Below, one piece after another: positions 20,863 through 59,404 of a DNA stretch of 64,000 nt (positions are counted from its first letter, which is position 1; each line of letters opens with the position of its first letter). A program made the position numbers and the translations under genes. This stretch comes from Gonapodya prolifera JEL478 (taxonomy: Eukaryota > Monoblepharomycota > Monoblepharidomycetes > Monoblepharidales > Gonapodyaceae), in contig KQ965790.1 of assembly GCA_001574975.1 (NCBI GenBank), positions 128,313 to 192,312 of the forward strand, written 5' to 3'. The notes under the pieces are model-generated. The model was not told the DNA's origin, did not search any database, and worked only from the letters and a program-made list of their open reading frames with translations.

Positions 20863-23330
20863 TCACTTCCCACCCGTAGTCCCTAGCCCCATCATCGTCT
20901 TCCACGTGTCGTAGATATACCACTGCACGCCCGTCAGCGTGCCGTACATAAACACCCTGGTGCCCAGCCCGCGGGTAGCGATATTCCACAGACCCGTTTC
21001 GCGGATCAGGTCGCGGACGGATTTTCCCCTGTAAAGGCGGCGGGTCGAGGCACGTTAGTCTCGGTGTAGTATCCCCGCACACGCGGGGTGCACACAGACT
21101 CAAACCCACCTATTCCCATCCTTGCCCAACAACGACACGATCGAGTCCGCCGGGTGGGACACGACCGCGCACGCCACGCCGGCAATGTACCCCGAGGCGA
21201 ACGTGACCCCGAGCTGGGTCAGCTTGGAGTAGGTCTCTTTGGGGTTGGTCAGGAGGTGCGTGTAGAAGAGGGATACGGACTGCGTGGGGAGGGGGGGGGG
21301 GCAAGATTTTGGTTAAAGGAGGGTGGGAGAAGCACGTGTGTGGCATGGATTACAAACCTGCTCGAAAAACACAAACTTGGCCACCGTATACGGAATCTGT
21401 CTCGCCCACAGGGCATTCAAGCTTCCAAACGGGAACCCGGTCCTCGCACGGTCAGTCCACATTTGAGTCCAGGCTGGAGCAAACGCCGTGGGCCATGTCC
21501 CGCGGGGGGAGGTCTGGACTTTTATTTTGGTCATTTCGAAGGGGACGAGGGCGATGTCTGGTGGGGTGTGGGTTGAAGGGGGGGTTGAGGGTGGTGGTTG
21601 GTATTAAGGGATTGGGTTGTTGGTGAGGGAAGAGGGAAAAGCGACGTGTAGATGAATTGAGTATCAGGTACCCATCCCTCCCTCACCAGCAAACCCCACA
21701 CCACTCACCAGCAAAGAACTCGGCCGACGCAGATCCAGCAGCCCAGATCCACGCGCGGTACTGCTTTGCGTACTCTTCGCCAGCGGCGTTGGAGTAGAGG
21801 TCTTTGAAGACCTGGCGGGGTGGGGAGAGACGGGTGTGGGTTGAGAAAGGACGACACGAAAACGAGGTGTGCGAACCCGGTCGATACGGGCTCCAGCTCC
21901 GCGAGTACAATTACACTCCGCGGTGTATTCGCCTCCGGTGGGAAAATGCCCTCCGCGCTCTGGACAATACCGCTTCCCGACAGTTAATCCGCCTCCTCCA
22001 GTGGAATCCTCGGTGAGCGCTAACACGCCTAGGCGTCTAGTACTATCCCGCTTGGCGGTAGGAGTATGCACTCCGGGCTGTGTCATTCGCGCTTCGCGCA
22101 GGTAATCCGCCGCCTCTGGCGGACGTCTCGCCTCACTCGTAGGCCTCGAACTCGCTCCGCGACGCGAGTACTCTCCCGCTCTGCGGTGTTATCGCCTCAG
22201 GCGAATAGCCTCGGTCGGCACTGTCGCGCCTAGGCCTCGGTGACGGTGACCTCCGGTGGGAAAATGCGTTCCGCGCCGTGCCATTCGCGCTTCGCGCAGA
22301 TCATTCGCCTCCGGCGGACGTCTCGCTTCACTCAACAGCCTCGGTCAGCGCTATCCCGCCAAGGCCTCGGAGTGCTCGCTCGTCCGGCGCTTGGCCTCCG
22401 TCACTCGACAGCGTCGTCAGCGCTATTGCGCTTAGGCCTCGGAGTCGTCAATCGGCTCGGCGCTCGAACAGCTCGGTCCTGCGTGCTTCGCACTCCAGAC
22501 CTCGCAATTCCCGAGACGCACCTCATACAACCCAAACTTGAGCGCCCCCTGCAACGAATACCCCACAAATGTTGGCGTTACGCCCTTCCAAACCGCCGCT
22601 GCGCCTTCTTCTTTCGCGATGGTCCGAAGGGCGGTTGTGGAGCTTGTGTACTTGATGGGGTCGATCTGGGCGGTGGGTAATGGGTGGTGGGAGGCAAAGG
22701 TCAACGGTCAACATGGTGTGTGAGTTGAATCGCCCGGTAAAAGGAAAAAGACAAACGGAAAATGCAATGATTCGCAAAGCTAGACTGTGACCTGATCTTC
22801 AGCCCCGGAACATTCCGACGCACGGGGTACTCGCCTCCGGCGGTCAGCGTCGGTCCTCGGTTAGCGCTATCGCGCCTGGGCCTCGGGTTCGCTCCGCGAG
22901 GAACATTCCACTTCACGGGGTATTCGCCTCCGGCGGACACCGCTCGGTCCTCGGTCAGCGCTGCGCGCTGAGGCCTCGGAGTCCTCCCTCCGCTCGCGTT
23001 GCTCGCTCCAGTCGGACCGCGCGCAGGCCTCCGTTGCTCGAGCCCCCCCCNAGACAACGAACCTGCACATTCGTCTTTGCGACGTCCAACGGGGTCACAG
23101 CCGCGTGAGTCATGCCACAGGCGAGCACGCCGCCCCAGAGACATTTATTGTAGTACGAGACTAAGCCATAGCGAGAAGATCAGCGATGGATTGAATTCGG
23201 GCGTGGGCAGGGAAGTGGGAAAAAGCAGAGCGAAAAGAGGGAAAAGACAAGACTGCTTACGGTCGTGTGGAACATGACCTGCGAATCTCGCGTTCCACTT
23301 TGGATTCGCGATTGCTGGAGGAGCGGACAT
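20863..23330 (-). CDS. MIR1: mitochondrial phosphate carrier (SLC25A3/Mir1 type)
   Basis: Imports inorganic phosphate across the mitochondrial inner membrane. Seven exons (23330-23261, 23160-23063, 22665-22522, 21811-21709, 21557-21358, 21279-21110, 21028-20863) give 951 nt, 316 aa, the usual carrier length. Three mitochondrial-carrier repeats are visible: HAAVTPLDVAKTNVQ then WKGVTPTFVGYSLQGALKFG; DIALVPFEMTKIKVQT then LNALWARQIPYTVAKFVFFE; VVSHPADSIVSLLGKDGNR then TRVFMYGTLTGVQWYIYDTW. The PLDVAKTNVQ signature separates phosphate carriers from other SLC25 proteins. Two introns are greatly enlarged (22666-23062 and 21812-22521) and filled with the GC-rich repeat described separately. An unresolved base N lies at 23051, just inside a donor site, in a homopolymer run. 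Confidence 0.93.
21860..22505 (-). repeat. GC-rich intronic repeat, cluster A (phosphate carrier intron 3)
   Basis: Several degenerate units of a GC-rich repeat inside a 710-bp intron. On the plus strand the recurring words are TCGCCTCCGGCGGAC, CCTCGGTCAGCGCT and GCCTAGGCCTCGG, with GCTCCGCGA-type spacers. The best unit runs about 22300-22375. On the sense strand of the gene these read as TCCGCCGGAGGCGA and AGCGCTGACCGAGG. The words are internally palindromic (AGGCCT, CCTAGG, GGCGCC-like). Confidence 0.85.
22796..23050 (-). repeat. GC-rich intronic repeat, cluster B (phosphate carrier intron 2)
   Basis: About two units inside a 397-bp intron, each with an ACATTCC..CACGGGGTA lead, CGCCTCCGGCGG, CCTCGG(T)TCAGCGCT and GCCTCGG. 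Same orientation as cluster A. It ends close to the 5' splice site of the host intron beside a C-run with one unresolved base. Confidence 0.85.
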
Positions 23331-24379
23331 TGCTGCGAGTCGAGGCGAGTCGGTGCAGCCGCACCATAAAGGCCGCGGTTCCGGGCGGCGCAGAGGTTAC
23401 GAAACGTGTCGTGGTGGGGCAACCCGAGATTCCCGACTCCAAGCGGGCGGTGACCCGGATGAACGAGTTGATACGAGGGCCGCAGGAGGCCGGGATGTAT
23501 TTCATTTTTGATAGGTTAGGGGTGCTGTAATAATAGAAAATAAAGACTTGGGGGTTGGTGTGCACTTGGCTTCCCACCTGCTGGGGGGGAAGGTTTTCCC
23601 TGCAGCCTGATTTCCACCCTCCAACTCCTGGGACGCGATGGACAGCGCGAGCCAATGTCACCATTCAACCCGCAGCGACAGAGCACGCATCTAGTGACAG
23701 CACCCATGCTTATTCATCCTCATCCCACTTGCGCAAGTGCAGACTCGGGAAAAACCACCTTGATTCACACTCGGCACCGCGCAGATTATGTATGTACAGC
23801 CGAGCGAGTCCCGCCACACGGGAGAGCTTGGGCGAGAGGCACCGTCTGTCTGAGACATGTACATGCATGGATCACAGCTGCTTGTTTTGGGAAAATGTTG
23901 CGCTACAGTGTGTCGTGCGATTTTCCTTGTCTTTTCGCGTGATTTCATACCTTTGCAAGGGTCCACCATCTGTTCCAAACGCACTCAATGGGTCGAAGCT
24001 AAAGGCCATCAACCGAGCTCGTACGGCACAGAGCTCGGATAAGGCTCACAACCAGTCCGTTTTGTCTATACCTCCTTTCAGTGATACGGGGCCTGCTTGC
24101 AATCCTGAGACTGAATATAGGTCGTCCCGCCACCCGTCGAACTTGACGACCAAGTCTGAAAGAGGACAGACGAGTGACCAAAGCACGACGACGGGGTACG
24201 AGTGCAAAAGCCGTGATTTTGAACGTTTCAGGCGGACTCGCGGTCAGGTGGCAGGTGCTAGGTGGAGGCAGGACGACGACCTTCCAAACGTTGAATTCCC
24301 GCCAGCACACAACCCCTTTTTTCAAACCATTTTCACCACCATTTTGAACCCCTATTTAGCGAGCTTTTGTAGTTCCAGT
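23331..24379. other. intergenic, no convincing gene
   Basis: Upstream of the carrier start. A 277-codon open frame on the plus strand (23555-24388) has no recognisable domain, a Ser/Arg/Cys-scattered composition, and competes with open frames on the other strand; I do not call it a gene. The last 100 bp may belong to the MYND fragment that follows. Confidence 0.4.
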
Positions 24380-24696
24380 GAAATTTGAGCAAGGGGGCGA
24401 AGCTCAAGAGATGCTCTGGGTGTGGGGTTGTGTGGTGAGTGAACTGATGCGGAAGGGACGGATTGCGTCATATGTACTTATTATCAAAGTCGCCATGGTC
24501 GCCCTGCAGGTACAAAGCGTGCCAGAGAGCCGACTGGCCAGATCATAAAGCGGAATGTGTCGCTTTGTCGTCAGTAGTACTGCTCAAATGCGTGGTCTTC
24601 AAAGCATGTGATTCCTCGTTCATCAGTTGTGATAAGCATTTTTGTTTGTTTGAAGCTGCCATGTACATAATAAATATTTGTCGTCTTTGCTTTTGA
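24368..24696 (+). pseudogene. MYND zinc-finger gene fragment with homopolymer frameshift
   Basis: Two pieces joined by a 75-bp intron (24435-24509) encode a MYND-type finger: CSGCGVVW, then YKACQRADWPDHKAEC, with the typical C-x2-C, the CQ-x3-W-x2-H-K-x3-C core and one expected Tyr-Cys pair replaced. The upstream coding stretch (FVVPVKFEQ) is in a different frame; the two frames would meet if the run of five G at about 24392 were four. The frame continues past the finger without conserved sequence to 24696. A near-identical FVVPVKFE stretch recurs at about 27220. MYND fingers bind proline-rich partners; no other domain remains here. Confidence 0.6.
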
Positions 24697-24939
24697 AAAC
24701 TATTTTGCAGCCTAATCGCATTCGCGCGTTCCTCACACCTAGAATGTGAAGAATTGCGACCTCCCCAAAATACAAGATACAGGAGTATCAATGTGTATTT
24801 ACTTGCCCACACAGCACATGTATCGATCTATATAATGTCTCAACGCGTCCCTGTCCTGTACACCATCCACCCTCCGCCACCGCAAACACCTCCTTCCCCA
24901 TCCACCCGTCCACCCATCCGCCCGTCACTCCTCGCCACG

Positions 24940-25136
24940 TCACAGCTTGCTCCCACCCTTCCCCCCGCCTTTGCCATGCCCCGCCGCCTCGTCATCCTTG
25001 GCGCCCGTATGCACCTCCATTCCTACACGCGCGAGGTACTCGTTGCGCGGGGCGACGAAGACTGGGCGGGTCGTGGTGGTGGTGGTGGGAGGGGTGAGAC
25101 AACACGCAACGTTAGACACAATCTTACCCCCCCGCG

Positions 25137-25176
<40 letters not shown>

Positions 25177-26984
25177 TACGCTCAACTCACGCCCCTCGCT
25201 CATAATCAACGGCTTCGCGTCCTCCTCCTTCCGCGCGCCAGCGTACAGGTTACAGTAGGGCCAGGACTTGCGGCCCTCGATCCGGCTCACGCCCGCGTGT
25301 AGCCGGATGACCCCGCCGAGGGGCACGCCTTGTTTGTAGGTGACGTTGAGGGTGAGTGTGCTTGAGGGGTGAGCGGGGGAAGGGGAAGGGAAGGGGAAGG
25401 GGGGTTAGGGGGGTTAGGTGGGTTGGTAGGACACGAGTGCGGACCATGTGACTCACCGGCAGGGTTGTGTCCGCATCAGAATCCCACTGGTTCCGAATCC
25501 GAGAATCATGTCCACGAATGTGGCGATGGATCCGCCGTCTGGACACGTGTGAACCGAGGGAGTGGGGTGGGGTATATCATACGGTCACATTGCAAACATA
25601 TGTAAACGCGTGCGTGTGGAGCCACGCCTCAACAAAACACGCGCCACGCCACCACCACCACCACTCTCCTCACTCACGGCAAAACCCCGGCGGCCCTTCA
25701 CAAAACTCTGTAAAATATCCCGCCCCCCAAAACTCCAGTGTGGGTTTGGGCTCCTCGGCGCGTCGACGCGCGTCTTCGGCGGCGTAGGCGGACCAGTCGG
25801 AGGGTTGGAGGTACTATGGGGTATGGGGGGAGGTGAGGGGGAGGTGAGCGGAGGTGAGGTGAGGTCTGAGGACATTACAGCGAAGCAGGCGCTGTATATC
25901 GCTCTGCGTAAGATCATTCGCCTCCGGTGGACTCCTCGGTCAGTAGTTCACACTTTGGCCTCGACGCTGACTCTGCGAGAGTATTTCGCTCCTTCCGCTT
26001 CGCGGAGAGTCCGCCTCCGGCGAACAGCCTCGGTCAGCGCTCACGCGCCTAGGCCTCGGTGTCCTCGCTGGTTCGTGCTATCACACTTTGACCTCGAGTC
26101 TGCGCTTAATCCGTGAATCATTCGCCTCCGGCGGACTCCTCGGTCAGCGCGAACGCGTTTACGCCTCGGGTCTCCCTTCGCTCGGTCTTCGTGGGATCAT
26201 TTGCCTCCGACAGACAGCCTCGGTCACTGCTGTCGCGCCTAGGCCTCGACGTCGCTCCGCGACGTATGCCTCGGTCAGCGCGAACACGCTTCGGCCTCGG
26301 GTTCGCTCCGCGAGAGTTCATTCCGCTTCGCGAGTCACTCGCCTCTGGCGGACAGCCTCGGTCAGCGCCTTGCGGCCCGTAGGGACCGACTCACCCTCCT
26401 CACCCACGGCCTCACCGCCCTCTTCACAAACAGCACCGAAAACATCCTCCCATCGACCCTGAAATAAAACCTCGACTGGCCGTTCGCGGCCCTCCCCTTG
26501 CGCTCTTCGTTCGTCCATGCGTGTTTCAGTGGGAGGAGGTCGGGAGAGGATAGGAGTTCGATGAGGACGGGGTGCAGCGTGCCTGAGGGGAGGCGGGGGA
26601 AGTACTGGGGGGTCGACGGGGGAGGGATGCGTGAGTGTGTGGGATGAGGTTTGATGGGGAATCGTGCCGTGCCGTGCCGTGGAGACCTCGGGTCGTATGA
26701 ATATAACACCTCGGTCGGCGATGCCGCGCCTCTGCCGGCCTCGAGCTCGCTCCGCTCCGCGGGGTGATTCGCCCTTCGGCGGCTAGCTTCGGTCAGCGCT
26801 ACCGCGCCTAGACCTCGGGGTCCGAGCGAAGCGAGGACCGCGTACGTACTCTAGCGTCGGGCTGGACTGCGACGAGGTACTCGAATTTCTTCTCGAGCGG
26901 GAGATTATGGGCGTACGCAAACGGGGGATCGGACGGGTCGAGTAAGGGCGCGGCGGGGGCGTCGACGGGGGTCAGCAGGGCCAT
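24940..26984 (-). CDS. hotdog-fold thioesterase (PaaI/THEM4-like)
   Basis: Acyl-CoA thioesterase-like protein. Six exons (26984-26850, 26604-26404, 25813-25678, 25538-25457, 25360-25191, 25061-24940) give 846 nt, 281 aa. The N-terminal half is a variable segment (FAYAHNLPLEKKFEYLV, RFYFRVDGRMFSVLFV). The hotdog core begins across an exon junction with the catalytic HGG motif (HGGSIATFVDMILGFG), then TLTLNVTYKQGVPLGG, IRLHAGVSRIEGRKSWPY and KPLIMSEGLFV. It ends in a Gly/Lys tail. Introns 1 (245 bp) and 2 (590 bp) contain the GC-rich repeat, and intron 5 contains a long homopolymer. The THEM4/5 and fungal YlEF-like groups are the nearest relatives I can name; substrate unknown. Confidence 0.88.
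25137..25174. repeat. poly-C tract (poly-G on the sense strand) in an intron
   Basis: Nearly 40 consecutive C on the plus strand, inside the last intron (25062-25190) of the minus-strand thioesterase and starting about 16 nt downstream of its 5' splice site. The true length is probably uncertain because such runs are poorly sequenced. Confidence 0.9.
25900..26395 (-). repeat. GC-rich intronic repeat, cluster C (thioesterase intron 2)
   Basis: The largest cluster: about five to six units in tandem, with CCTCGGTCAGCGC-type words near 26029, 26134, 26218, 26270 and 26356, each preceded by a CGCCTCCGGCGGAC-type word and usually followed by GCCTAGGCCTCGG and GCTCCGCGA. It fills most of a 590-bp intron. 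Confidence 0.87.
26705..26836 (-). repeat. GC-rich intronic repeat, cluster D (thioesterase intron 1)
   Basis: Two units (near 26710 and 26785) with CCTCGGTCGGCG and TTCGGTCAGCGCT words and GCGCCTAGACCTCGG, ending 13 bp from the 5' splice site of a 245-bp intron. Same orientation as clusters A-C. Confidence 0.85.
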
Positions 26985-27189
26985 GGGGGGTGGGGATTGG
27001 GTGGTAACGGTGGGGTTCGGAAGGTTCGGTCGGATGCTTCCACGCGGCGCCACAGCCGCCACCATTTTTCGTGAGGTACCAGAGTGTACATATGTACGAC
27101 AGCCGCAAATTACAGCTGTTTGTGAAACAGGTTGCACTTTGCACTTGGACATCAATAAGGTTTTGCAATTACTGTAAATAATTTAATTT

Positions 27190-27237
27190 GTGCTGTGATT
27201 ATACCGTCACGAATTTTTTGTAGTCCCAGTGAAATTT
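27190..27237 (+). pseudogene. short fragment matching the MYND-gene piece at 24.37 kb
   Basis: The sequence TTTTGTAGTCCCAGTGAAAT followed by TTGAG matches 24368-24392 with one substitution. In translation it is synonymous (GTT to GTC in FVVPVKFE) and is here followed by a TAA stop. A silent difference suggests shared coding ancestry. Nothing else of the gene is visible. Confidence 0.4.
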
Positions 27238-27721
27238 GAGTAAAATTTGGATCAAAAAGGGGATCCACAATCGACGAATTCTGTGTGATTTTGGTTGGCA
27301 ATTTTGACGAGTATCATGAAAGTCAAGCCTCAGTTTGGTTTTGACGCCACGCCCGTGCCCTCTGGAGTCAGACAGTTCGATGAGCGACGACGTCATGTTC
27401 TTTGAAGCCGTCTCGCACGAGTTGATGGAGCTCCTCTGCCGTAATGAGCGCCCCGATTGCCGAGTTGTTTGCCATGAGCGCCTGTCGACGGACTAGCGGA
27501 GCACTGGAAGGCTAACGGAGTTCGGGAGTCGGAGCGAAACCGGAGGTGAAAGACGTCATTGATGAGAGGCATTCCAACTGGACGGAGGCTTATGTGCAAA
27601 CTGGGTTTGGCTACTTTCCCTAAAAGGGTTCTGCCAGTAGCACACTTGAGCTCTCAACGCACTATAAATTCGTTTTCAATTTGGATCCCTTTTGGATCCC
27701 CATTTCGTATCCACACGCTTC

Positions 27722-29182
27722 TCATCGCTCCAGATCAACATACTCCTCGCCGCGAAGGGGGTCGAACAGAGGGTTGTTTTGCCTCCATGACGCCAGATCA
27801 TCATTGAACCGCGTCTCGGTGAGTGCAAGGTACGACTTCCACGAGTCCTGCACAAAGGGAAGGATCACGTTCGCGCCTTGGAGAAGCTGCTTGTGCTCGT
27901 CCATGCCGTCTTTGAACGGGCTGCGGAATGTGTGTCTCTTCTTCGTCGCACTGAACAGGGGGACTCTGACGTTGCCAATGACTTCCGTGCCGGACAAAAA
28001 GCCTTAGGAGCCACGGAACAAATTAGTTGTGATGTTAAAACCCAGTCAGTGTGGGGGATAAAACGCAATTCCCTCACCATCATCTTCACTGTCGTCATCG
28101 TCGTGGTCCTCTTCGCTTTCACTGTCCTCGCCTTCACGTTCTTCGTAGTCGTCATCGTCATCTTTTGAGATTATAAGCTTCAACTCGAAGAAACGGAACC
28201 CGTCGCTTGGATCGACAAGATGCTCCGCCAAGATAACAGCCGTCGCGAGAACCCAGTCATACTCAGAAACTTGGTCGAGAATTTTGGAAAAAAGGCTTTT
28301 TTCGTGGTGCTGTACGAATCGCGGATATACCCCTCGTATCCGGTGTTGATAATCACGGTCGTTACGAGCCGTTTCTCAGAAAGAGCGTTCACGGAGATTG
28401 GTTCCACCATGTCGTATCCTGCATCTTTCTGAATGCGGAGGCACCCACCATGAAGTTTGCCTTGATACACAACTTCGCTTATCCTTCCCTGTTATACAAC
28501 TTCGAGGTCGTCTCACACCTACCTGGAGCAAAGACAAGCAAGACAAAATATGCTTGCTTTCATCGCCCCGCGTAGCAAGTACCGCGCACTCGTAGGAATA
28601 GTGGCGTACGCGGGTGCGAAAGATGACAAGGCGGCGGGGTAGAGCAAGGGCGGTGGATGGAGAACCTGTGACGTGGAGACTGGAGACGAGGAGGGTGGGT
28701 ATTGTACAGTGCGTTGATGCGTATGTAAACCATGCTTGTGTGCTGCAATCGAGCTCAAGGATGCACCTGAACTTCCGTTGTCGTAATGCGATGGTGTCAA
28801 ATGACTCACCCTGCAATCAAAACTGCGCACCACAGAACCCGATCCCGCAGCCGTCTCTTTGCCCCGCTACATCACAACCTGCCAACTCAACTCTACACAA
28901 AACCGGATAGACAAACTCCTTTCCAGGTGTGATATCCCTCCAGGGCATCATCAAAAAGCTCTTCGCGAAAAAGCCGAAATTTCCATCTCAGTTATATCCC
29001 CTGACCGGTTTCATGTGAAAATCGGTTCAGAATTGGAGCCCCTAACACTAGTCATCTTCCAGTCGGAGCGCATACGTCAAGAATCGCTCGGACATCATCG
29101 TACATCGAAATTGAGGCATCGGATGTGGAAATTCGTGACTCGAAAAGACATACGGCCTTCATTTTCGCAGTCGATGTACCTG
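27722..29182 (-). pseudogene. probable multi-exon gene remnant of unknown family
   Basis: Minus-strand coding-like segments: about 29182-29078 after a strong acceptor (nine T then CAG) reading TSTAKMKAVCLFESRIS and SMYDDVRAILD before a GTATGC donor; about 28490-28270 reading ISEVVYQGKLHGGCLRIQK and VEPISVNALSEKRLVTTVII; then, in another frame, about 28330-28050 reading FSKILDQVSEYDWVLATAV and AEHLVDPSDGFRFFELKLII followed by an acidic KDDDDDYEE tract; and 27997-27722 ending DPLRGEEYVDLER-stop. The switch between the second and third segments cannot be explained by an intron of workable length, so a frameshift is likely. Flanking MYND pieces on the other strand suggest this is one decayed gene neighbourhood. 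Function unknown. Confidence 0.4.
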
Positions 29183-29685
29183 AAAAAAAAAACCCGCATA
29201 AGTCACGCATTAGTCCCAACCCGTTGAATATGCCACGTACCAATCTCGCTACTCGCCAATCCTTGATTGCACAACGTTAAAATCCGTTTCAACTCACTGG
29301 CTAAAAGTGCTTGCACTTGCAATGTTTTTGGAATTTGAGATTTGCAAAAGACTTGGACTTTCAGGCGAAGGTGTCATTCCTTCCGAATCGCCACGCGAAA
29401 CCTAAAAAATACTCCTTTGGCGATTCTAATGTTGTCTTCGGGCATAGATGCCGATGAAGTACACAACGTTTCCCTCGTAACTCCAACTTCTCCTTCCGAT
29501 CGTCTCCTTTTGTTTGTTTCGAGTATTCGGATAGATCTTGGAATTCCAGGAATCTTTTCGATACTGCAGTACTTCCCGTTACGGATGAAATTGTGCAGGA
29601 GCTGGAGCCCTCTTTTCGGAGCTGACAGCGGAATACTCACGTCAGATCACGGGTCGCGGAGAGTGAAATGGCCCTATAGAAGGTA

Positions 29686-30157
29686 ATGCTCCCTTCGTGC
29701 GTTGAGCGGTGCAGAGAATGGATCCACGAGGATGATTGTGAGTATGGACGGTGCCACTCTCAAGGTCTTGCGGTGAACGAGTCTTGTGTTCATGCGGAGG
29801 AGTTTTTCCGAATTCTTTTGGGGCGGAGAAATGTTTCCCAATTGGGAGCTCGCGAAGACATTTGTGACCAGGGCATCAATAGCTCCTGTGTTCTCAATGT
29901 CCTTGATCGAAGAACGAACGATCAAGCATTTTACTTCTGGGCAACTCATAGACGCTATACGGCGAGGTACGCTGGATGGATCTGGACCTTGGCAAACATG
30001 CCGACTGTGTGAAAAGAAAAAGGAAGAAATGGTACCGCGACTATTGAAATGTGGCGGTTGTGCGAAGATGAGGTATTGCTGCAAGGACTGCCAGGTCAAA
30101 GACTGGAAGCGACACAAAGTTGAGTGTTCTGGCAATAAGCGAGATTCTCGCAAGTAA
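29686..30157 (+). CDS. MYND zinc-finger protein, C-terminal exon(s)
   Basis: The C-terminus is a complete MYND finger: CRLCEKKKEE, then LLKCGGCAKMRYCCKDCQ and DWKRHKVEC, with all zinc ligands in place (C-x2-C, C-x2-C, YC-x3-C, H-x3-C). Upstream lies an ordinary helical stretch (FPNWELAKTFVTRASIAPVF, QLIDAIRRGTLDGSGPWQT). The frame is open from an ATG near 29786, but the 5' side is unclear: coding-like sequence continues upstream past an in-frame TGA at about 29774, so either an intron or a disabling stop lies there. MYND domains recruit transcriptional or chromatin partners. Confidence 0.6.
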
Positions 30158-30376
30158 ATGATATTAGTCATGACACGGTCTCTGTCTTGATAATCTTACC
30201 CGCATTGAAACGTGAAATGAATGAATTTTTCCCACAAGAGATCCTCTTTGAAATTTATTTCCTTCTAATAGCGTTCAAGATATGCAATACAATGGTTCTG
30301 TCATCGTAAAACGTTGAATACCAAAATTTGACACATGTACAAGGTTTTTATTTTCATGCTGATGAAGCAAGGCGTC

Positions 30377-32484: not shown

Positions 32485-32639
32485 TGTCCTCGCTTCAATA
32501 CCAGTATCATCCCTTTGTATTGGACGGTCCCACGGCAATCCTGTCTTTTCCTCCGCACCGTCGAGGGGATTTGTCGAGAGAAAACTGCGATCGCTCCCTT
32601 TTGGAGTGCGGGGGACGTTGGCTGAAGGGATGAGGGAGA

Positions 32640-35811: not shown

Positions 35812-36148
35812 GGTTGGTGCAGGACAGCGGGATGGAAGGCGCGCCTGTGAGTCGGATTCCTGAATGTGCGGGAGACTGCATGGAGATTGAATTACTCTTA
35901 ACATACATACTTACCGAGTTAATGTGAACATAATTTTCTTGAGTACGTGCATTAGCAGCAAAGTACCAGATGATAATCCCGAAAGACCCGGCCGCGAGAA
36001 AAAAGGAGGCGCAAAACAGGGTAACACAATGGTAAACCAGCTTTATCCACGCAACACGTTTGGACTTGCGTTCTGCTCGCTTTTAATGCACATTGTTGGA
36101 TAATCGAGTATCTCAAATCAACATTCTACAGCATATTAATTCGTACAT

Positions 36149-42000: not shown

Positions 42001-43423
42001 ACGGCATCTCCACCAACCTGTCTCAACATCAGAAGAGACGAAAGCACCGTCACCAGAGAGAACGGCCTTGCAAGATCCCGAGCAAAGACAGCAAGGTGCC
42101 CAAAGGGCGCCAGATGTTCGTGTTCAGGCAGATGCTCCGAATCGTCCGAGTCAGACGTTTGTTGCGGTGTCGAATAATGCGAAAGAGGCAAGCTCGACCC
42201 AGCAATCACAAAGAAACCCCTCTCGATCAGCGCCGCCGAAGCCTGTTGAAGTCGCCCCTCCAAAGATACCCTTTCCTTCACATCCACCTTCACAGCCAGC
42301 AAATGTGACTCAATTGTCAATGAGGATGCCTTCTGGTTTCGGTCCACAGAGCAGTCAGAGTCAAATGGATTCTACGCAGACGGTTTCGGGCGTTAAGCGA
42401 AAACCAGGAGCTTTGCTTGAAGACATTGGAGAGGCTGCAGATGGACTTGCCGGAGACGTCTCGACTCCTCCTAGCTCCAGTCACCTAGGAAAACTGGGGC
42501 GATTCGTTTTCAATCGTAAGCCGATTACCACCGCTCCCCCATCGAAGACGGAGCAGACGGTGCACTCATCCGCAACGCCTCCAGTGAGGGATGCTCCTCC
42601 GCAACTGTCGAACCTTCCAATCCCGGCGCCACTATTGGTTGTTGAGAAGGCGACTGGCGGTCAAGTCGTCCCCAATCACCCCGTCCCTTCTGCTCCACTG
42701 ACTTCAAAACATTCCGCCACTCCTCCAATATGGAAAACTGCATCGTCTGCATCTGCTCCTCCAGGTGCACCTTTTGTTGGAGGGAATCACCAAAACACAC
42801 CGGGTCGTTTCGCTCCACCAAATCCGCCTTCCTTGAGCCTTGAAAATCACGGCGTTCCCTCTGCTGCTTCACCATGGAGTGGGAATAATCAAATTGCAAT
42901 GGGCCGCTCGGCTCCCCCAAACCCACCTTCCATCCCCCAAGTCGTACCGTCAGCTGTTTCTTCAGGTATTGGAAATCTTCAAAAGACATTGGGCCGACCG
43001 GTGCCTCAGAATCCCGTTTCCATCACCACTGCGAATGATGCAACACCTTTTCCTCCCGGCCCCAGTGACGACGATGACTTTGACTTCGACATCGACCCCG
43101 AGCTGCTCGCCCTAATTGATGATGAAGAACTGTTAGACACACCTGTTGTTTCTGCACACCAAGGCTTTCAATCGACGAAACCAGCAGATCCTGACAACAG
43201 ACCGGACGTTCCGGAAGTTGAGACACCCCACGGACTTGGAAACACAATCCCGGTCCCCACACATTCTGCACCTTCTGAAGTGGTAAACCCCCCGAACAAT
43301 GGCGCTGTCGATGACTTTGATGAAATGGACTTGGGGTGGGATTTGGACAGTCACGATTTGTCGCCTGCCACATGTGCAGAAGATGCCACGCGACAATCCA
43401 AAAAACGACGTTTTCTTGTATAA
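39017..43423 (+). CDS. MCM9: MCM9-type helicase
   Basis: Hexameric-helicase family protein acting with MCM8 in homologous recombination and fork repair. N-terminal MCM fold with zinc ligands ([25 protein letters not shown]), [18 protein letters not shown]-like loop across an intron, [20 protein letters not shown], then Walker [14 protein letters not shown] (split by an intron ending at 40748), [13 protein letters not shown], Walker [25 protein letters not shown], sensor [10 protein letters not shown] and arginine-finger SRFDLVLVL. The helicase part ends near 41820. A long C-terminal exon to TAA 43421-43423 adds about 500 disordered residues with three NPP-type repeats and acidic patches ([20 protein letters not shown]). 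These features favour MCM9 over MCM2-8. About ten introns. Confidence 0.9.
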
Positions 43424-43522
43424 TATCATCGCTAGCATAATATAATGATAATGTGGTAAATCTGAAAGAAACGAAGAGTGATTCAAGAATTATTTTTTTA
43501 AGTAATGGTACGTACGACCCCA

Positions 43523-46500
43523 CTACAACGCCTCTAGCGCGTGCCCCTCCATGGTCATTTTTCGTACTCTCGCATACAACTGTTGGAACTGCTCGTGGGC
43601 CACATGAGGCACTCCCTCCTCGTCCGACAGGTAATCGTCCTCCTCCGAGAAATCCACAACTGCAGACAAATTGTCCGCGTCGACGGTGTGCGAACGGAAG
43701 GGGAAGTAGTACCGGCTCTCCTTTTTCTGAGGCGCCATCGTCTCTTGTGCGAGCTGGGGAGTCTCGGGGTGCACCTGCCGCAGATTGGAGTCGCTGAGCC
43801 ACTTGTTCCAAAACTTTCTGGGTCGGGTTGGGCTGATGGCTTCGTACGACGGACGATCTCCGCTCCGGCGCCCGTCCGCGCTGCCGGGCGCCGTCGGGGG
43901 GTCTACCGCGGGTGGGACCGGTGGATTCGTGAGGTGCTCCTCCGAGTTGCTTCGGCTTCTCCGTCGTGACAGCGAGCGCAACAACCTCGTCATCGAATTT
44001 TCCTTCTTCGCCGGTGCCGATTTTGTGGCGGTTGCTGCCACCACGGTGATGTCTGCCGAAACCCTCGGGGATGGCGGCTCCCCTGCACTACTTGCGTGGG
44101 ACCTTGCCGGAGACGCCGACCTGCGCCGCGACTCATCGTCCTCATTCGACTGTACGGACCCTCTCCTCTTCGCAATCCACTCGTATGGCATCTTGACCAC
44201 CTCGAGCACATGACTCGGGCTCGGCGGACGAGGAAGTGAGTTAGCAAGTCCTTCGAACGACCTGCGGATGGACGACGTCGCGGCCTTCTTTGCCGCCGCG
44301 CGCTTGACGACGGCGTCCATTTGTGCGCGCGCCAGCTCTATCTCGCGCTCGATGATGTCGGTGGCGGCGCGCACGCCGTCCTCTTGCGCGATTTGGGCAG
44401 CAATGCGGAGCGCGTTGGCTCGCATTTCGGACCAGGTCGTGATCTGAGTGATGGCGGAGACGAACTCGTCGACGGTCGTTTTCTTGATCCTGTTTTCGGG
44501 GGTGGGGGTAGGGTTGGAGTTCGTCGCAGAACAGAACGTGTGAATGACCTTCTGGACAAACAACCCCCCACGAACCTCCCAGTACAAAACCCTCACCTCA
44601 CTCCGACCTTCGCCCTCTCCAAAATATCCCCCCAGAAATGCTGATCTCCAAAAAACGGGTGCACAGCCGTCGGTTTCCCGGCCCTCAACCCGGCCGCCAC
44701 TGTTCCCGCACCACCATGATGCACCACGGCGTCCACCTGGGCAAACAAGTAGTCGTGCGGGACGGCCCCGATCTTGATCACATTCTCCGGCCACTCCACT
44801 GCCGCGCCTGCCGCATGCGCACCACCGGCGCCGGGCTTCCCGCGGCCGCTCCACCCTTCAGCGACCACAAACGCCGCATCGCACTTCCTCGCAGTCTCCG
44901 CCACGACGCGGGAGAACGCCACGGCGTCGTCGATGACGATAGAGCCCGTGCCAATGTACACGATGGGCCGCGTCCCGCGGTGTTTGGTTAGGAAGGAGGT
45001 CAGCGCAGCGGGCGGTTCGTACCCCACGTCGGGGTTGTCGAGGAAGAAGTAGCCCGGGACGTGTGCGGTGGCGGGCCAGTCGGGGGGGGAGGGGAGGACG
45101 CTGGGCGCTGTGTGGGTTGTGCGATGAGGGTGGGACAAGTTGGTGGGAACGTTCAAGTGGCCGTGCACGAAACTGCCGGGACAACCAAAAAACTCACAGT
45201 AACAGTAAATCGTGGGTATCTCGCCCGCCCATATGGGCCCGAATAGCGTCGTGGGATCCAGCCCAATCCGCTTCCGGAACTTGTTGATTTGCCTAAGGGT
45301 GTGGGATATGTTAGGATCGGTGTTCCCCTTTTCGCTCCCTCCCCCCCCNCCCCCCTCTCGCGGCCCCCAAAACGCACATATACATCCCCAACGCCATCCC
45401 ATCGCTCGTCAGCTTATGCGTGAGCAAATTCCACCCGCCGCCCATGGCCGCGTTGGGGACGAAGAAGGGGTGGGCGAATGCGCGCGTGGCGTGCCAGGGC
45501 ATCGTCATAGCGGAGATGTACTGGGGGCGGAAGTTAGAAGGGAACAAGTAAAAACACGGAATGAGCACAACAACCCAGTAGCAGTCCGTGAAACTCCCCG
45601 ATAAGCCACAACAGACTCAACGACACCCAATCACTCCGGTGAGCCCACAAAGGCCCCATGAAACCCAACAAAGCCACACAAGCACATACCAAATCCAAGC
45701 GAACAGAACCAAACCCACCCACCCACCAAACTCACCGGCACATGATACGCCTCCGCGACATGCACCCCACACAACGCCGAGGGCGTGCCAATAATCAAAT
45801 CCGTCCCTTTACACGCCTGATACGCCGTGAGCATCATATCATCGATCCACGGCCTGAGCACAAACTGGCCCTCTGCCAAGAACCGCGGTGTGAACATGCC
45901 CTTCTCGGTCGCGAACGCCATGATGAGCACCGGGTCCCCTGCGACGGGCGCGAATTCGAGACCGTGCGAGAGAACAAAGGACCGGAATTCGGTGAATGTG
46001 GCGATACGGACTGTGTAGTTGTGCGGAGCGGAGGCGAGGTGCTTGCCCCAGGCGATGAAGGGCTGCACGTCCCCGCGCGAGCCGATGGTGAAGATTGTGA
46101 TGTGTCGCACGGGGCGCGCGGCCGTGTCGGTGGGTGAGAGGGGTGAGAGTGGCGCTGTTGCTGATGCGGATGGGGATGGGGATGGGGGAGCCGAGATGGA
46201 GATGGAAGCCGTCGAATGGGTTGGTGAGGGCGGGTCGTGGGCGTGGGCGTGGGCGTGTGCTTGGGAGTGCGAGGGGTCCACGGAGGCGTTCGAAGAGGCG
46301 TTCGTGGACGAGAGCGACGACGTGGGTGAGGGCGGGTCCAGCAGCGGCGAGACGACTGTGGCGGTGGACGGGCGGACGATTGAGATTGTGGGTAGGGGCA
46401 GGTTGCGCGCTATGGCAGCGGGAGTGGGAGTGGGAGGTGCGCGGGTGGGAATGGGAGTTGCGAGAGTGGAGAGGTGCGCTTGAGGGGGAAGAGTAAGAGC

Positions 46501-47549
46501 AGGTCCAGGTCCAGGTGCGAGAGCGGGTTGGGACGGGTGGTGGAGCGTGAATGGAGTAGGTGAGTGAGGACGCAGTGGCGAGGATGGAGAAGAGGGGAGA
46601 GCGAGCGTGGCGGGGTGTGTGGCGTATTGTCTGGAGGTTTGGGCGGGTATGGGAACAGTGACCAGGGCGAGTATCGTGAGAAAAAGAGGCGAAAGGGGAG
46701 TTGGAGGAGTGAGAATTGGTGAAAGGGAAGTAGAATAGTGAGAACACAAACTCGCAGCACCGCCTAAAAGAGAACCGAGCAGCACCGCCGAACAGAAGTA
46801 CTCACTCAACCAACCCTCTCAACACGCCCAACAACCCATCCCTAACTCTCTTTGCGTAAAAGTGCATCTCCAAATCCAACATCGCAGTGTGGTCATCCGC
46901 GACGTGCACCTTGAGCGCGGCCATGAACCCGTCCGTGCCCGACACGGACACGCGCGTCGATGGTGCGGTGCAGGGTACGACGACGGAGCACTGCTCGTGG
47001 TCCGAGGCGCAGGGGGAGGAAGGGTCAAGACACACGACCCCGAGGATTGTGGTGAGCGAGGGGCTGATGTGTTGGAATGCGAGGTGGCGTTCGAAGCTTT
47101 TGGTAGGTGGGTAGGGGGTGGGGGGTAGAGGGAAGGGGTAGAGGGTAGGGGGAGGAAGAGTGAGTGAGTGAGGTGAGTGGTGACGAAATGAGCAAAGCAG
47201 AAAGAGTTATCATGTCTGCACGGTGCGGATCCAGGCGTGTTGATGTGATCCGAGTCACAGATCCAATGACTGATCCGCTCCGCGGTGTATTCGCTTCCTG
47301 CCTCCCACAGGTCTCGCCCTCGTTCCCGAGAGTATTCGACCCCGTAGATCATTCGCCTCCGGCGGGAGTACGCGGATGAGCCGGTTCGCCGGGATATCTG
47401 CCTCCGACGGACTTCCTCGGTGAGCCCTCTCGTACCTCGACCTCGGCTTCGCACCGCGAGAGTATTCCACTTTGTGTGGATCATCTGCCGCCTCCGTCTC
47501 TCGCAACACTCACAGGTACACCTTCCCCCTTCGCCAGACCCCGCCGACA
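43523..47549 (-). CDS. sterol glucosyltransferase-like UDP-glycosyltransferase with GRAM-like N-terminus, 5' end unresolved
   Basis: Glycosyltransferase family 1/28 enzyme like fungal sterol 3-beta-glucosyltransferases (Ugt51/Atg26). The N-terminal PH/GRAM-like segment is split by an intron: FITVGGVWRRGKVYL then FERHLAFQHISPS. A long Pro/Ser-rich linker follows. The catalytic part starts ITIFTIGSRGDVQPFIAWGKH and continues FAPVAGDPVLIMAFATEKGM, LIIGTPSALCGVHVAEAYHVP, YISAMTMPWHATRAFAHPF, GLDPTTLFGPIWAGEIPTIY, RPIVYIGTGSIVIDD, and the donor-binding VHHGGAGTVAAGLRAGKPTA then HPFFGDQHFWGDIL. The C-terminus is a basic-acidic tail, stop at 43523. An intron of roughly 400 bp near 47110-47510 carries GC-rich repeat cluster E. 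Base 45349 is N in an intronic homopolymer. Exons upstream of 47549 were not found. Confidence 0.83.
47205..47500 (-). repeat. GC-rich intronic repeat, cluster E (glycosyltransferase intron)
   Basis: Diverged units with ATTCGCCTCCGGCGGG (about 47350), TGCCTCCGACGGAC (about 47400), CCTCGGTGAGCCCT, ACCTCGGCTTCGC and CGCGAGAGTATTCCA. Lies between the coding pieces ending in GKVYL and beginning with FERHL, so it is intronic, in the same sense-strand orientation as clusters A-D. Confidence 0.8.
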
Positions 47550-48664
47550 GTGATGAAGCACTTTGACGACTGGTGGACTGTTGATAAATTCGCTCATCAG
47601 CTCTCTGCTCTCTTGTCCCCCTTCCGCTCCCCTCTCCTACTCACACTGCTCGTCGCTCATCACCAGTCCGAACCTCGTCCATGGATTCGCCTCGTATTGT
47701 CCGCTCCTCGTCGGCCCGGCCCCATGTCGCCCGTCCTTGTCTCTTCCAGATCCTCCCCGTGTGTCGTTAGAAGCGTCTCTGGTGGGTGATGGATGCGAAT
47801 GTCCCTCGCCGTGGGACGGAACCGGAGATAGAGACAAAGGCCGCATCATTACGCTGACTTGTCTCGCGGACTGGACTCTGCGACGATGCAACGGATGCGA
47901 TCGCTGGTCGCCGCTCTCTCTGCGCCGATCAGCCGAGACTTGTTCCTTCTCTTGTCAAGAGCGGAGTCCGCGGACAGGTGGTCGGGTGAATTCTCAGTTC
48001 AGCCTGATCCAGGTTGTCGAGGGTTTCGATACAATCGCAACTCAGCAATTTGCACGTGGCGCAGGTATTCCCGGAATGTACTCGGTGTGTTTACCCGTCG
48101 CGCTTGTGTATTCGTCGAATAAGGAGCCGGAATATTTCTGTACCCCTCCTCGTCTTTGTGGCCGGTCACAACACCATCCCGCAACATCGCATTTGTTCCC
48201 ATCACATAACCCTCTCCGTGGTTCATCTACAAACACCGGCCAAAGTACATCTCGAATTGATCTCACCAGTTCATTCACGTCATGAACACAGCCGGAGCAG
48301 GTACTGTAGCAAAGGTGTTTCATGGTACCGTTTGGACTTTGGCGGCCCCTTCGCCTCTCCACCCCTCGTCCGTCGTGAGTGACGGAAGCGCAGCGAGGCA
48401 TTTGCCCGAGGCCAGTGTCTCCGCGGAGACCGAGTGGAATGCATACTCATCGCGGACCGATATCGACGCCCAAGTGCGAAGCACTTCTGAATCCATTTTG
48501 TTCTTCTTCGTTTGAATGTTGTTTTTCGGGGAGGTGGTGAAGCGGGATTGGGGACGTTTTGGGACTGTATTGAAATCGGCCCTGCCGAGAACGAGCGCGC
48601 CAAGAGAACAAAGTATAGAGTAGCATGAGAGCAGAGACCTGCGTCGGACCATTTTTATCACTCG
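47550..48664. other. unresolved stretch, possible 5' exons of the glycosyltransferase gene
   Basis: About 1.1 kb with long open frames on both strands (for example 240 codons plus at 47563-48285, 119 and 113 codons minus at 48401-48042 and 48661-48320). None has a recognisable domain. The glycosyltransferase needs an upstream exon and a start somewhere here. Confidence 0.4.
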
Positions 48665-49294
48665 CTATGCTCATTCGAACTAGTTTGGAGCTCGGACACA
48701 ACGTATGGTGCGTACATGGTTGGTGGAAATCCAACAGCCAGGGCGTTCGTCCGGTGGTTTGAGACCAACATCTCCCACAAAATCGCCAATTTCAACCCAC
48801 GACTCGACGATGCGATTAAAGCTGGGTACACCATCTCGTCCAAATTCGCCGACGTGGGGTATTTCGAAAACGTTGTTGTGGAACGGGCTCAAGCCTTGAC
48901 ATGGGCCGAATTTCGCAAGCTCCAGCGCGGGGAATGCTCTCTTGTGGAGGCTGCCAACGATATCTGTGCTTTGTGGGATCTGGGAGAGGGACTGAAGAAC
49001 GCGCATTACTATAGCGTGACTCTGGTGAAGGTGAGCTTCTGTTCATTTTCTTAATTCTTACCAATGTCACATCAATTGGTTTGTCTTCGCCCACTGCCAA
49101 TGTGAACCATTGCAATCAAAAGGCAAGGAAACGACTCGGAACACGACCCATTGAAATTCCCAAGCAGCAAGCCAATTTCCCCGACGCAGGTGAAACAGCC
49201 ACAGCCACAGTTGCGGTCGCAGGGAATTTGGGTGTGGAAGAAAGTGAGGTCGCAAGCTGCCGAACAAAGAAACTTGGGCGGGCTGAGAATTGAA
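48665..49294 (+). CDS. hypothetical protein, C-terminal part
   Basis: Coding-like from about 48665 in the frame reading SFELVWSSDTTYGAYMVGGN, then FVRWFETNISHKIANFNPRL, AGYTISSKFADVGYFENVVV and CALWDLGEGLKNAHYYSVTL, up to a GTGAGC donor at about 49030. A second exon beginning near 49123 (ARKRLGTRPIEIPKQQANF) would end TGA at 49292-49294. The 5' end is unknown. The general look (a small alpha/beta tail after an acidic Trp-rich start) recalls the C-terminal part of SAM-dependent methyltransferases, but no signature motif is present, so no function is assigned. Confidence 0.45.
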
Positions 49295-49309
49295 ATATGA
49301 GGGTGGTAC

Positions 49310-49603
49310 TTAGGTGCACACCGTGGACTCTTCAACTGGATTCTTTGGCCTTTGCACGTAATTAAACATGAGCAAGTGCGGACCATATTGTACCATATTG
49401 TACGTTTCTTCAAAACTTTTGAAAGTGAATTTGAATGCCTCGTTGAAAGCAGCAAATTCAAACGCGGGGTTGATGAGCTCGAGACCCGAAGGTTGTAGCA
49501 AAATGATCGAACACGTCGAATCGGGGGGTCGTGGTGATGGGTATGGGATGGATGGTGTTGTTGAGAGCAGGATTGCGGAGAGAGCGAGGTTGTAGAGGCG
49601 CAT
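49310..49603 (-). CDS. hypothetical small secreted protein
   Basis: A 97-codon open frame starting with a plausible signal peptide (MRLYNLALSAILLSTTPSIP) and continuing as a soluble chain (LELINPAFEFAAFNEAFKFT, YNMVQYGPHLLMFNYVQRPK). The frame is open further upstream, so the start is chosen only because of the signal-like sequence. It converges with the hypothetical gene ending at 49294. No family recognised; this may be a chance frame. Confidence 0.35.
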   Translation of the reverse strand: MRLYNLALSAILLSTTPSIPYPSPRPPDSTCSIILLQPSGLELINPAFEFAAFNEAFKFTFKSFEETYNMVQYGPHLLMFNYVQRPKNPVEESTVCT

Positions 49604-49800
49604 TTGCACGGGATATGTATCAGCGATACATTTAGCCATCGAAGACCACTCCACCTTGGTTGCCCTTGTGGTTCTTCTACATATGTTTGTGGGGGAAGTG
49701 TCCGCAGGGTGTTCGGCCAAATCGCGATCATCGGAACTTTTTTTGGCCATCATCCCCCACAAGCGCCCGCCGCATTCCCCGCACCCACTGCATCCACCGC

Positions 49801-52091
49801 ATGCCGCACGCGCAGCGGCCATCGCGCGATCTGCATGTGCACGACGAGGAAACCGCCGAGGCAAAGGCAGACGCAGAGGCATCGACCGAAGAAGACGCTG
49901 CACACCACGGCCACCCGCCCGTGTCGGCATCGCTCATCTGGGTCCTCTCGATTCTGTCCGGCGTCACAGTCGCAAACCTGGTGCGTGCTGCTGCTGTCAC
50001 GCTTGTAATCCTCGATGACCGATGGCCGATGCCGAGACCAACGCGCTATTTGTTGTTGTTGTTGTCGCGCTCGTTTCCCACTTCCTAGTACTACGCGAAT
50101 CCCCTGCTCGAACTGTTGCGCGAGAGTTTCGACGTCGACGAGTACCGGGCAGCAAGCATCAATGCTTTGTTGCAAGGAGGCTACTGTGCTGGGCTGTAAG
50201 TCAGTCCGCCGCTTCTTGCCTAATGCCCCGTCGCTTCAATCGTGCCGACTGCCGTGCTTTGCATCACGCCCACTCCACCTCTCCTCATTCAAAAGACTCT
50301 TCGTAACACCTCTCGGCGACCTCCTCCCCCGCAAACACCTCATCCTCACACTCGTCTTCACATGCGGCCTTCTATCCCTCGGACTCGCGTACGCGCCCTT
50401 TCTCGCCTTCCAGACGCTTTCCTTCGTCATGGGCGTCGCGACCGTGGCGCCGCAGATCATCATCCCACTCACCGCCGATCTCAGCGCTCCTCAAGTTATG
50501 GGCAGCAATGTGGGCAAGGTGAGAGCGGCGCGACAGGAGGGAATGATCCGTGCGTGCGTGAAGCGCGAATGACAGAGCGCGGGGTGCATAAATCCCGCCC
50601 GTTATAAGTGTGTCCGAGATCCGAGTCTAAGCGGACTGAGCCTCGTGTCATAACTCTAAAACTCTCGAATTTTTGTCCCGACTCCCGCCTCCCTCCAGGT
50701 ACTGAGCGGAACTCAAATCGGGATTCTCCTCGCGCGCGTCCTCTCCGGCGTCCTGGCCGACCACATCACCTACCACGGCGTTTTCCTCCTTGCCGGCGGG
50801 CTGCAACTTGTGCTCGCACTCATCGTCGTCTGGCTCATGCCCGCCGTCCCGCGCAACAACAATGACATGAGCCTGTGGGAGGTCTACAAGAGCTGCTGGG
50901 TCTTGTTGACGAGGGAGCCCAAGCTGCAACAATGCTCCATTATTGCGCTTCTTTGCTATGCGTCATTTGGTGCGTTATGACGGGGCCGCGAGGTCTGGAG
51001 TGCAAAGAACGGAAGACCGAGCACGGAGGCCTAAGCGCCGCTAGGCACTGACCGAGGAGTCCGCCGGAGGCGAGCGCCCCGTAAAGTGGAATACTCTCCC
51101 GTTCCGTCCCGCTTCGCGTGCCAAACACCTTCTCACGTCACCTATTCGAATCATACAGCGACCTTTTGGACAACCTCCACGTTCTTGCTCGCCAACGATC
51201 CGTACCACTACACGTCGACGCAAATAGGGCTGCTTGGCTTGGCAGGCATATCGGGAACTCTGTTTGCAGCCGTGGGCGGGAAACTTGCTGTAGGTCTCTT
51301 CCGTCCTTTCCGTCTGTTGTTCACCTGTGATGCGGCAAACACCTTCCCCCTCCCTCTCGCGCGCATTTTCGCCCAAAACAAGGATCACATCGGCGGATCC
51401 TTCTTCGTCATACTGATTGGGATAGTCTTCAAGCTGATCGCATGGACCATGGCCGTCTTGTTCGGAACGAGACACATTGCGGCGCCCATCGTCGCGGCGT
51501 TCTGCTTGGACGGGGGCAGACGGATGCAGCAACGTACGTGTCGTGTGGCAGGAAGTAAAGTTGGCAGTTGCTCGGCTTCGAATGATACCTTGTGACGACT
51601 GTGCAAACTTCAAAACTTTTTCTTCGTTTTTTAATGGTTTTGGTTGCCAGTCGCGAATCAGCTCCGGGTGTACACCATTTCTTCGACAGCACGATCAAGA
51701 GTGAACGCGGTCTACATGATTATAGGTGTGTCGCTTTATTTTATATGTCAATGGCCACCGCGACAGCGTGACGAAACCCTCTTTTTTCTTTGCGTGTATT
51801 GGTGTCCCGTCACGCTGTTTGCGGGTGCGCGGACTGGTCCACATAGGGTACTCTGGAACTTTTATCGGATCGCTCGTCGGAACAGCCTGCTGGGTCGCTG
51901 GCGGCTGGACGCTTGTGTGCGGCGCAGGTTTTTCAATGGTGGGAGCTGCGCTGGTCGCTTGGGCAGCGTGGAACGAGCAGGGACGGTTCAGGCTTTCGGA
52001 ATGGTACCGTCGCTACCGCTACAGGCAAAAGCCAAGAGGTGGCGATGTCGTGAGCGGAGTCGCAACCGAAGAGAAGGGAATCCTGGCGTAA
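49801..52091 (+). CDS. MFS transporter, DHA1 type resembling bacterial YnfM-like proteins
   Basis: Twelve-helix major facilitator. The start ATG at 49801 opens a His/Glu-rich cytosolic head of 40 residues, then LIWVLSILSGVTVANLYYAN, PLLELLRESFDVDEYRAASI, GGYCAGLLFVTPLGDLLPRK (signature loop 2-3 with G-D-x-x-x-R-K), TLVFTCGLLSLGLAYAPFLA, MGVATVAPQIIIPLTADL, GTQIGILLARVLSGVLADHI and a second half ending with FIGSLVGTACWVAGGWTLVC. The YYANPLL element after helix 1 is like the YYNQPLL of bacterial DHA1 proteins. About seven introns; one (50970-51158) contains repeat cluster F. Substrate unknown. Placement of exons between 51295 and 51830 is approximate. Confidence 0.85.
50985..51115 (+). repeat. 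GC-rich intronic repeat, cluster F (MFS intron), plus-strand sense
   Basis: One unit inside the 189-bp intron 50970-51158. It reads GGAGGCCTAAGCGCC, CACTGACCGAGG, TCCGCCGGAGGCGA and GTAAAGTGGAATACTCTCCC on the plus strand, the reverse complement of clusters A-E. Because this host gene is on the plus strand, orientation relative to transcription is the same as in the other five clusters. Confidence 0.87.
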
Positions 52092-59373: not shown

Positions 59374-59404
59374 GACAATATACTGTGCAATATATTCACA
59401 CGTG

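Follow-up and report, generated by a model that had tools for sequence, protein, structure and literature searches.

The nuclear genome of Gonapodya prolifera JEL478 carries hundreds of copies of a non-coding repeat built from tiny, very stable GC-rich hairpins. Every array that could be placed is intronic and in the sense orientation, close behind the 5' splice site, a placement unlike that of ordinary mobile DNA, and the repeat excludes the splice sites of its host introns. With a probability of roughly 0.38, this may reflect a hairpin element that is copied, or gains units, on the coding strand exposed when G-rich introns near the 5' end of genes are transcribed, while selection clears other placements.

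A repeat profile run over 286 kb of sampled sequence matched 103 units in 44 clusters, compared to none in the same sequence reversed. Furthermore, the motif AGCGCTGACCGAGG occurs 230 times across the 47.56-Mb genome, where copies outside the 286-kb sample are known by motif position only, and its backwards reading does not occur at all. These counts exclude chance. No curated RNA family in Rfam matched positions 20000-52000 of the window (the whole 64,000-nt stretch of contig KQ965790.1 analysed here) at E up to 0.5, and the exact pattern of the core had no match in a viral contig collection.

Placement was determined with a gene finder on repeat-masked sequence, the errors of which were read manually. 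All 42 classifiable clusters, spread over 25 genes, are sense-intronic and none is antisense, with two further clusters unclassified, so that the intron-only, sense-only placement originally predicted from the window extends to the whole 286-kb sample. Introns make up 22% of this sample (64.3 kb), while its 88 kb of predicted intergenic DNA is free of the repeat, and Pfam domains cross 16 splice junctions of host introns. The gene finder reported two exceptions, L043 as antisense and L050 as intergenic. Both were rejected on reading by eye: L043 lies in sense in an intron of a ZMAT2/Snu23-like gene and L050 likewise in one of a Tubby-like gene, and L043 was again sense when the gene finder was rerun without an intron model. 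Similarly, 9-mers of the core were found in sense in 30 introns, in antisense in none and as "intergenic" at one place, which is the misread L050 intron. A genome-wide test at donor sites returned 24 cases of a 5' splice site followed by a sense module and a single antisense case, which overlaps a sense copy.

Within the window, motif scan and profile matches agree on the six predicted clusters, five on the minus strand and one on the plus strand, all in sense to their host genes. These are four unrelated genes, as proposed, and the host introns span the expected 189-710 nt; ordinary introns have a median length of 100 nt (5-95% range 52-414). Two minus-strand arrays lie in a mitochondrial carrier gene. 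The first (21897-22446, six profile matches, intron 21812-22521, 710 nt) starts with module M2 (GCGAGGTCTGGAGTGCGAAGC) 16 nt from the 5' splice site, followed by core modules, and a Mito_carr domain spans the junction. The second (22809-23041, profile 22809-22983, intron 22666-23062, 397 nt) starts with module M1 (TCGAGCAACGGAGGCC) 21 nt from the 5' splice site, again at a junction spanned by a protein domain, and contains a 210-nt unit (22810-23024) with about 40 relatives elsewhere in the genome at 74-84% identity. A search for a second haplotype of this gene as an empty site returned repeat matches only. A 4HBT thioesterase gene hosts two further minus-strand arrays, at 25895-26373 (six profile matches, intron 25814-26394, 581 nt, with the 4HBT domain in an exon downstream) and at 26706-26836 (profile 26751-26822, intron 26605-26849, 245 nt, its acceptor corrected by hand). 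The fifth, at 47266-47496 on the minus strand (profile 47377-47451), has one strong and three weak units in an intron of a glucosyltransferase-like gene (47097-47513, 417 nt). The sixth, at 50988-51096 on the plus strand (profile 51024-51096), lies in an intron of an MFS transporter gene (50970-51158, 189 nt) with an MFS_1 domain across the junction. The six are not the full set. A degenerate seventh copy at about 48375-48490 on the plus strand (E 0.003, 12.7 bits) begins with GTGAGT and looks like part of the first intron of a plus-strand gene with its second exon at about 48680-49030, in a model made by eye. In addition, a short core fragment (GGAATGATCCGTGCGTGCGTGAAGCGCGAATGACAGAGCGCGGGGTGCAT) lies in sense at 50520-50605 on the plus strand, in the preceding MFS intron (50519-50698), below the profile threshold.

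The arrays share a common anatomy. The 5' splice site is followed by a short G-rich spacer, a single 5' module (M0, M1 or M2, once per array), the iterated 90-nt core with module order B0-B-A-D-E, and a C-rich 3' tail of about 108 nt that is unrelated between host introns. Core units number from one to more than ten per array, and both copy number and array length are highly variable. The distance from the 5' splice site to the array is 6-67 nt (median 17 nt), and the spacers, varied in sequence, are 54% G; GGGG occurs in 60% of them compared to 20% (sd 8%) of length-matched starts of other introns. Host introns are also biased to the 5' end of the gene (relative CDS position 0.36 versus 0.57, p = 0.0007; within-gene permutation, p = 0.005).

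An introner-like element, in which the array forms the centre of an intron that moved by transposition, exon insertions created the host introns and the G-rich 5' and C-rich 3' ends have since diverged, would account for the short distance to the 5' splice site and the fixed module order. It would also fit the GTGAGT donors of 17 of the 34 host introns, compared to 30% of others, and the absence of some host intron positions from paralogues: several SDR paralogues run across position 129.67 without a break, and positions in the ABC and MFS genes are missing from several distant and from distant paralogues, respectively. However, no homology of 5' ends, splice sites or 3' tails was found between host introns, with mean local scores for the 3' tails of 15.4 in host introns and 12.8 in other introns, against 42.2 for the array. 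Target-site duplications at the intron junctions are likewise lacking, the longest shared word being 3.35 nt versus 3.29 with shuffled partners. Moreover, an MFS paralogue on C12, 80-89% identical, has an intron at the position of the sixth array (about 565857-565926) of only about 65-70 nt rather than 189 nt, which leaves no room for an array, and the SDR intron near residue 100 is apparently common to paralogues in a shorter form of about 170-190 nt. As judged from the MFS comparison, arrays therefore seem to enter introns that already exist, although the array could instead have been lost from that paralogue. Of the interpretations first offered, a repeat that has to be transcribed in one direction is supported, while a strict introner is unlikely.

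The exceptional property of the hairpins is their loops rather than their overall folding energy. In host introns, GNA and GNNA loops on the sense strand outnumber the reversed form by 92 to 2 (GNA:TNC 68:1, GNNA:TNNC 24:1), whereas elsewhere these ratios are near 1:1. The commonest closing pair is C-G, matching the rule for GNA/GNNA minihairpins, which with G-C stems are extraordinarily stable in DNA (PMC4686876). In the loop of the main hairpin, N varies while G and A are kept; the tetraloops go beyond the RNA-type GNRA, GATA being the most common, and literal GCGAAGC and GCGAAAGC cores are present. Under DNA fold parameters the sense strand is preferred in 18 of 22 arrays (p = 1.5e-4), which represent one property of one family rather than independent events, and under RNA parameters it is not favoured. 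Overall, the arrays folded about as well as dinucleotide-shuffled sequence (z about -0.5), and the suggested sense-strand consensus fold did not materialise, as RNAalifold returned no structure and hairpins were therefore tallied by hand-named pairs. The idea that hairpins bring intron ends together also failed, since end-to-end pairing, through hairpins or through the G-rich 5' and C-rich 3' ends, showed no excess over shuffled partners.

Selection could instead have kept a functional intronic RNA or DNA signal that acts in sense near the start of early introns, other copies having been lost; putative roles are an aid to splicing or a boost to expression as in intron-mediated enhancement. The sense-only position beside the 5' splice site fits such a signal, as does the location near the gene start, as for intron-mediated enhancement. 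Compensatory changes also maintain pairing in the main hairpin (14 double changes observed versus 3.1 expected), and G-U exceeds A-C by 61 to 26 in helices H1 and H2. However, helix H3 has no such excess (31 to 38), and a coding-strand bias from C to T would equally yield one. The variable length and copy number, the absence from most introns, the unrelated host genes and the lack of general fold stability or end pairing make this explanation quite improbable. Finally, an ordinary transposable element with unrestricted insertion in either orientation, visible only where selection permits, is very unlikely and, given the intergenic and antisense counts, close to refuted. Strong acceptor-like sites are about four times as frequent in reversed as in sense arrays (7.9 versus 2.0 per kb), so antisense copies could disturb splicing, but other introns read in antisense are just as rich in such sites (8.2 per kb). 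This reading also leaves unexplained why arrays lie so close to the 5' splice site and are absent from intergenic DNA, and intronic retroelements studied in human genes are biased the opposite way (PMC1794541).

From this pattern of placement, we infer that hairpin copying on the coding strand would begin with an element that enters or expands in pre-existing introns. The target would be the coding (non-template) strand exposed by transcription, with copying as single-stranded DNA or through RNA templating. The G-clusters just 3' of the 5' splice site on the coding strand and the early position of the host introns are consistent with R-loops formed during transcription, where GNA/GNNA hairpins could arise on the displaced coding strand; the loop rule and the composition are the basis for proposing such a single-strand step. 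The compensatory changes in the main hairpin also speak for the model. Selection would purge exonic copies as well as antisense ones, which carry additional acceptor-like sites. Against this model, copies would also be expected in transcribed UTRs; none was observed, though the gene models used carry no UTR annotation. The element itself may, tentatively, be described as a mobile hairpin array without splice sites or coding capacity that inserts strand-specifically behind 5' splice sites and whose spread would be confined to transcribed introns by a dependence on the exposed, single-stranded coding strand or on intron RNA.

Strand-specific hairpins are also a feature of bacterial REP/RAYT and IS200/IS605 elements, whose relatives move as single-stranded DNA. 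Those systems are bacterial, however, and an IS200-type Y1 transposase (PF01797) had no match in this genome, whereas five controls were positive. Intron growth and colonisation are usually attributed to transposons that land either way and are then filtered, or to introners with their own splice sites. An intron-only, sense-only family without splice sites needs another link from transcription or splicing to insertion, for which an R-loop, intron RNA or selection are candidates, and hundreds of copies adjoin 5' splice sites. Introners and introner-like elements, as in Micromonas, fungi (ILEs) and Amoebophrya (IEs; PMC9860276, PMC4457414, PMC7789003), are likewise dispersed families in introns of many unrelated genes, and some, those of Amoebophrya, likewise have palindromic structure. 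Their repeated unit, however, is an intron with both ends, whereas neither splice sites nor 3' tails belong to the present repeat, target-site duplications are lacking, array length varies and a paralogue has at least one of the host introns in a form too short to hold an array. GC-rich palindromic repeats of Volvox carteri organelles (PMC2670323) and Fusarium mtDNA (PMC7218506) are also short, dispersed and apparently selfish, but they are organellar, with no tie to spliceosomal introns or the direction of transcription, while the present repeat is nuclear and sense-only. The DNA minihairpins such as d(GCGAAGC) share its GNA/GNNA loop rule (PMC4686876), but those are oligonucleotides, whereas here such hairpins make up a repeat in a genome and are confined to one strand.

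The GC-rich hairpin arrays lie only within introns and only in the sense orientation of the host gene, beside the 5' splice site behind clusters of G and early in genes, with GNA or GNNA loops on the coding strand and a variable tandem core. The window (G000:C60:128313-192312, from a eukaryotic genome of 47.56 Mb in 207 contigs) was analysed together with further stretches taken around genome matches (20 of 10 kb each and several of 3 kb), giving a sample of 286 kb which by gene prediction comprises 64 kb of introns, 88 kb of intergenic DNA and 132 kb of exons. These regions were chosen at exact copies of one motif, a choice that is gene-neutral but favours better-conserved copies. Within the window, a scan allowing at most 1 mismatch recovered the motifs at every position originally claimed and at no others. 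Genome-wide, AGCGCTGACCGAGG has 121 forward and 109 reverse copies, and 0 when read backwards without complementing; copy number is thereby only bounded, at 230 exact copies of one 14-mer. A profile derived from the units detected 103 units in 44 clusters across the sample and 0 in its reversed sequence.

A simple self-trained HMM gene finder, with repeats masked so as not to vote, placed 40 of the 44 clusters in introns, 39 of these sense. The only antisense call (L043:4722-5078), when read by eye, lies sense in an intron between ...DHINGRK and HQRNLGISMK... of a ZMAT2/Snu23-like zinc-finger gene. L050:4982 is likewise sense, in an intron between ...SVKNFQ and YVLLQFGRVSEDAF... of a Tubby-like gene. 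L042, called exon in part, opens with GTGAGTGG and continues into the array. Leaving aside L034:2871 (46 nt, 17.5 bits) and L023:139, which sits at the locus edge, all 42 classifiable clusters are intronic and sense by the gene finder and by eye for the exceptions, as originally noticed for six clusters in the window. In a second run of the gene finder, introns had no content model, the splice matrices came solely from non-repeat introns and the mask extended 120 nt to either side. Here 39 clusters came out sense and 0 antisense; of the other five (L034, L042, L050, L023 and L049:4354), 3 were called intergenic and 2 exon. Furthermore, in 13 genes Pfam domains continue unbroken through a total of 16 host-intron junctions, always on the same strand as the repeat: carrier (2), MFS, methyltransferase, epimerase, SDR (2), PhyH, FAD monooxygenase, M20 peptidase, PHD, UCH, complex I subunit, ABC transporter and sulfotransferase (2). 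Core 9-mers occur sense in up to 30 introns, antisense in 0 and at 1 intergenic place, the misread L050. At 24 places genome-wide the sense module GAGGCCTAAGCGC lies no more than 30 nt downstream of GTGAGT; the reversed module does so at 1, where it overlaps a sense copy at C36:71366-71436.

Between the 5' splice site and the array lie 6-67 nt of spacer (median 17), of which 54% is G. Among spacers 12 nt or longer, 60% contain GGGG, compared to 20% (sd 8%) when the starts of other introns are matched for length. Next comes one of three unique modules, M0 GACGGAACGAACGAGGCGAAGC, M1 TCGAGCAACGGAGGCC or M2 GCGAGGTCTGGAGTGCGAAGC, typically single and at its 5' end, often followed by M3 GAGCGCAGCGAGC; the iterated core consists, in order, of B0 CACCGAGGCCTAAGCGC, B AGCGCTGACCGAGG, A TCCGCCGGAGGCGA, D CCGCGAAGCGGAAT and E CTCGCGGAGCGA. 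The tail from the last unit to the 3' splice site has a median of 108 nt, and 30 of 34 arrays are closer to the 5' splice site. Host introns are indeed longer, with a median of 347 vs 100 nt, and typically lie early in genes, although this test is blurred by models that merge some neighbouring genes. No homology between host introns was found in tails or spacers, and no target-site duplication at host-intron ends. Introns across the genome, with or without arrays, are G-rich after the 5' splice site and C-rich before the 3' splice site, more markedly so in long introns, and a poly-G run of ~35 nt (25140-25180) starts a thioesterase intron. A plus-strand gene at 48375-49030 was missed by the gene finder: it has a short first exon (ATG ~48283), GTGAGT at 48375 (+), then a degenerate hairpin copy, and a second exon at ~48680-49030. 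Three related multi-pass membrane protein genes, ~57509-58827 (-), ~59507-62100 (+) and ~62676-64000 (-), form a local gene family at 57509-64000. The GAS8/DRC4 family gene (PF13851) in sampled locus L037 indicates a flagellated lineage, and the overall gene content may point to a zoosporic fungus.

The originally proposed introner reading fails in its strict form because of paralogue comparisons for the MFS and SDR genes. A paralogue of the window's MFS gene (C12:564627-566090; main exons 80-89% identical) has matches that, at the 50970-51158 junction, stop at 565864 and restart at 565923 with a 4-residue overlap, which places an intron of ~65-70 nt at the same position. The window intron (189 nt) is ~120 nt longer, a difference equal to the array, and this favours insertion of the array into a pre-existing intron or its loss from the paralogue. 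Since more distant MFS paralogues match uninterrupted through the site, the host intron itself is not universal. In an SDR gene (L041), the residue-100 intron is seemingly common to paralogues, where it is shorter (~170-190 nt), and several paralogues read straight through position 129.67. To judge from these alignments, arrays may still have been linked to intron creation in some cases. Intron 3 of the C12 paralogue is ~380 nt, vs 180 nt in the window gene, and here it is perhaps the paralogue that carries an array.

Selection by itself does not account for the lack of arrays in intergenic DNA. It would act as an added factor on top of a bias in insertion or expansion: reversed arrays carry 7.9 strong acceptor-like sites per kb against 2.0 in sense arrays, a fourfold excess, yet their density does not exceed that of other introns read antisense. 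The substrate for insertion or expansion could be the intron RNA itself or, alternatively, the coding strand where R-loops form over G-rich intron starts and displace it.

Neither strand of the arrays has a more stable fold than its dinucleotide shuffles, and RNA energy parameters gave no sense-strand stability advantage across arrays. Under DNA energy parameters the sense strand has the stability advantage in 18 of 22 arrays, to be read as one shared family property and not 22 events. The main hairpin, AGCGC-loop-GCGCT, shows 14 compensatory double changes vs 3.1 expected from independent columns; the excess is small in the other two hairpins. Among perfect stems in host introns (4 bp or longer), GNA outnumbers TNC loops 68:1 and GNNA outnumbers TNNC 24:1, compared to ~1:1 in exons, intergenic DNA and other introns. 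Loops of the main hairpin (GAA, GATA, GGA, GAGA, GCA, GAAA and GACA) vary freely at N, keep the outer G and A fixed and include tetraloops beyond GNRA. According to the published rule, DNA minihairpins are extraordinarily stable when a GNA or GNNA loop is combined with at least 2 G-C pairs (PMC4686876).
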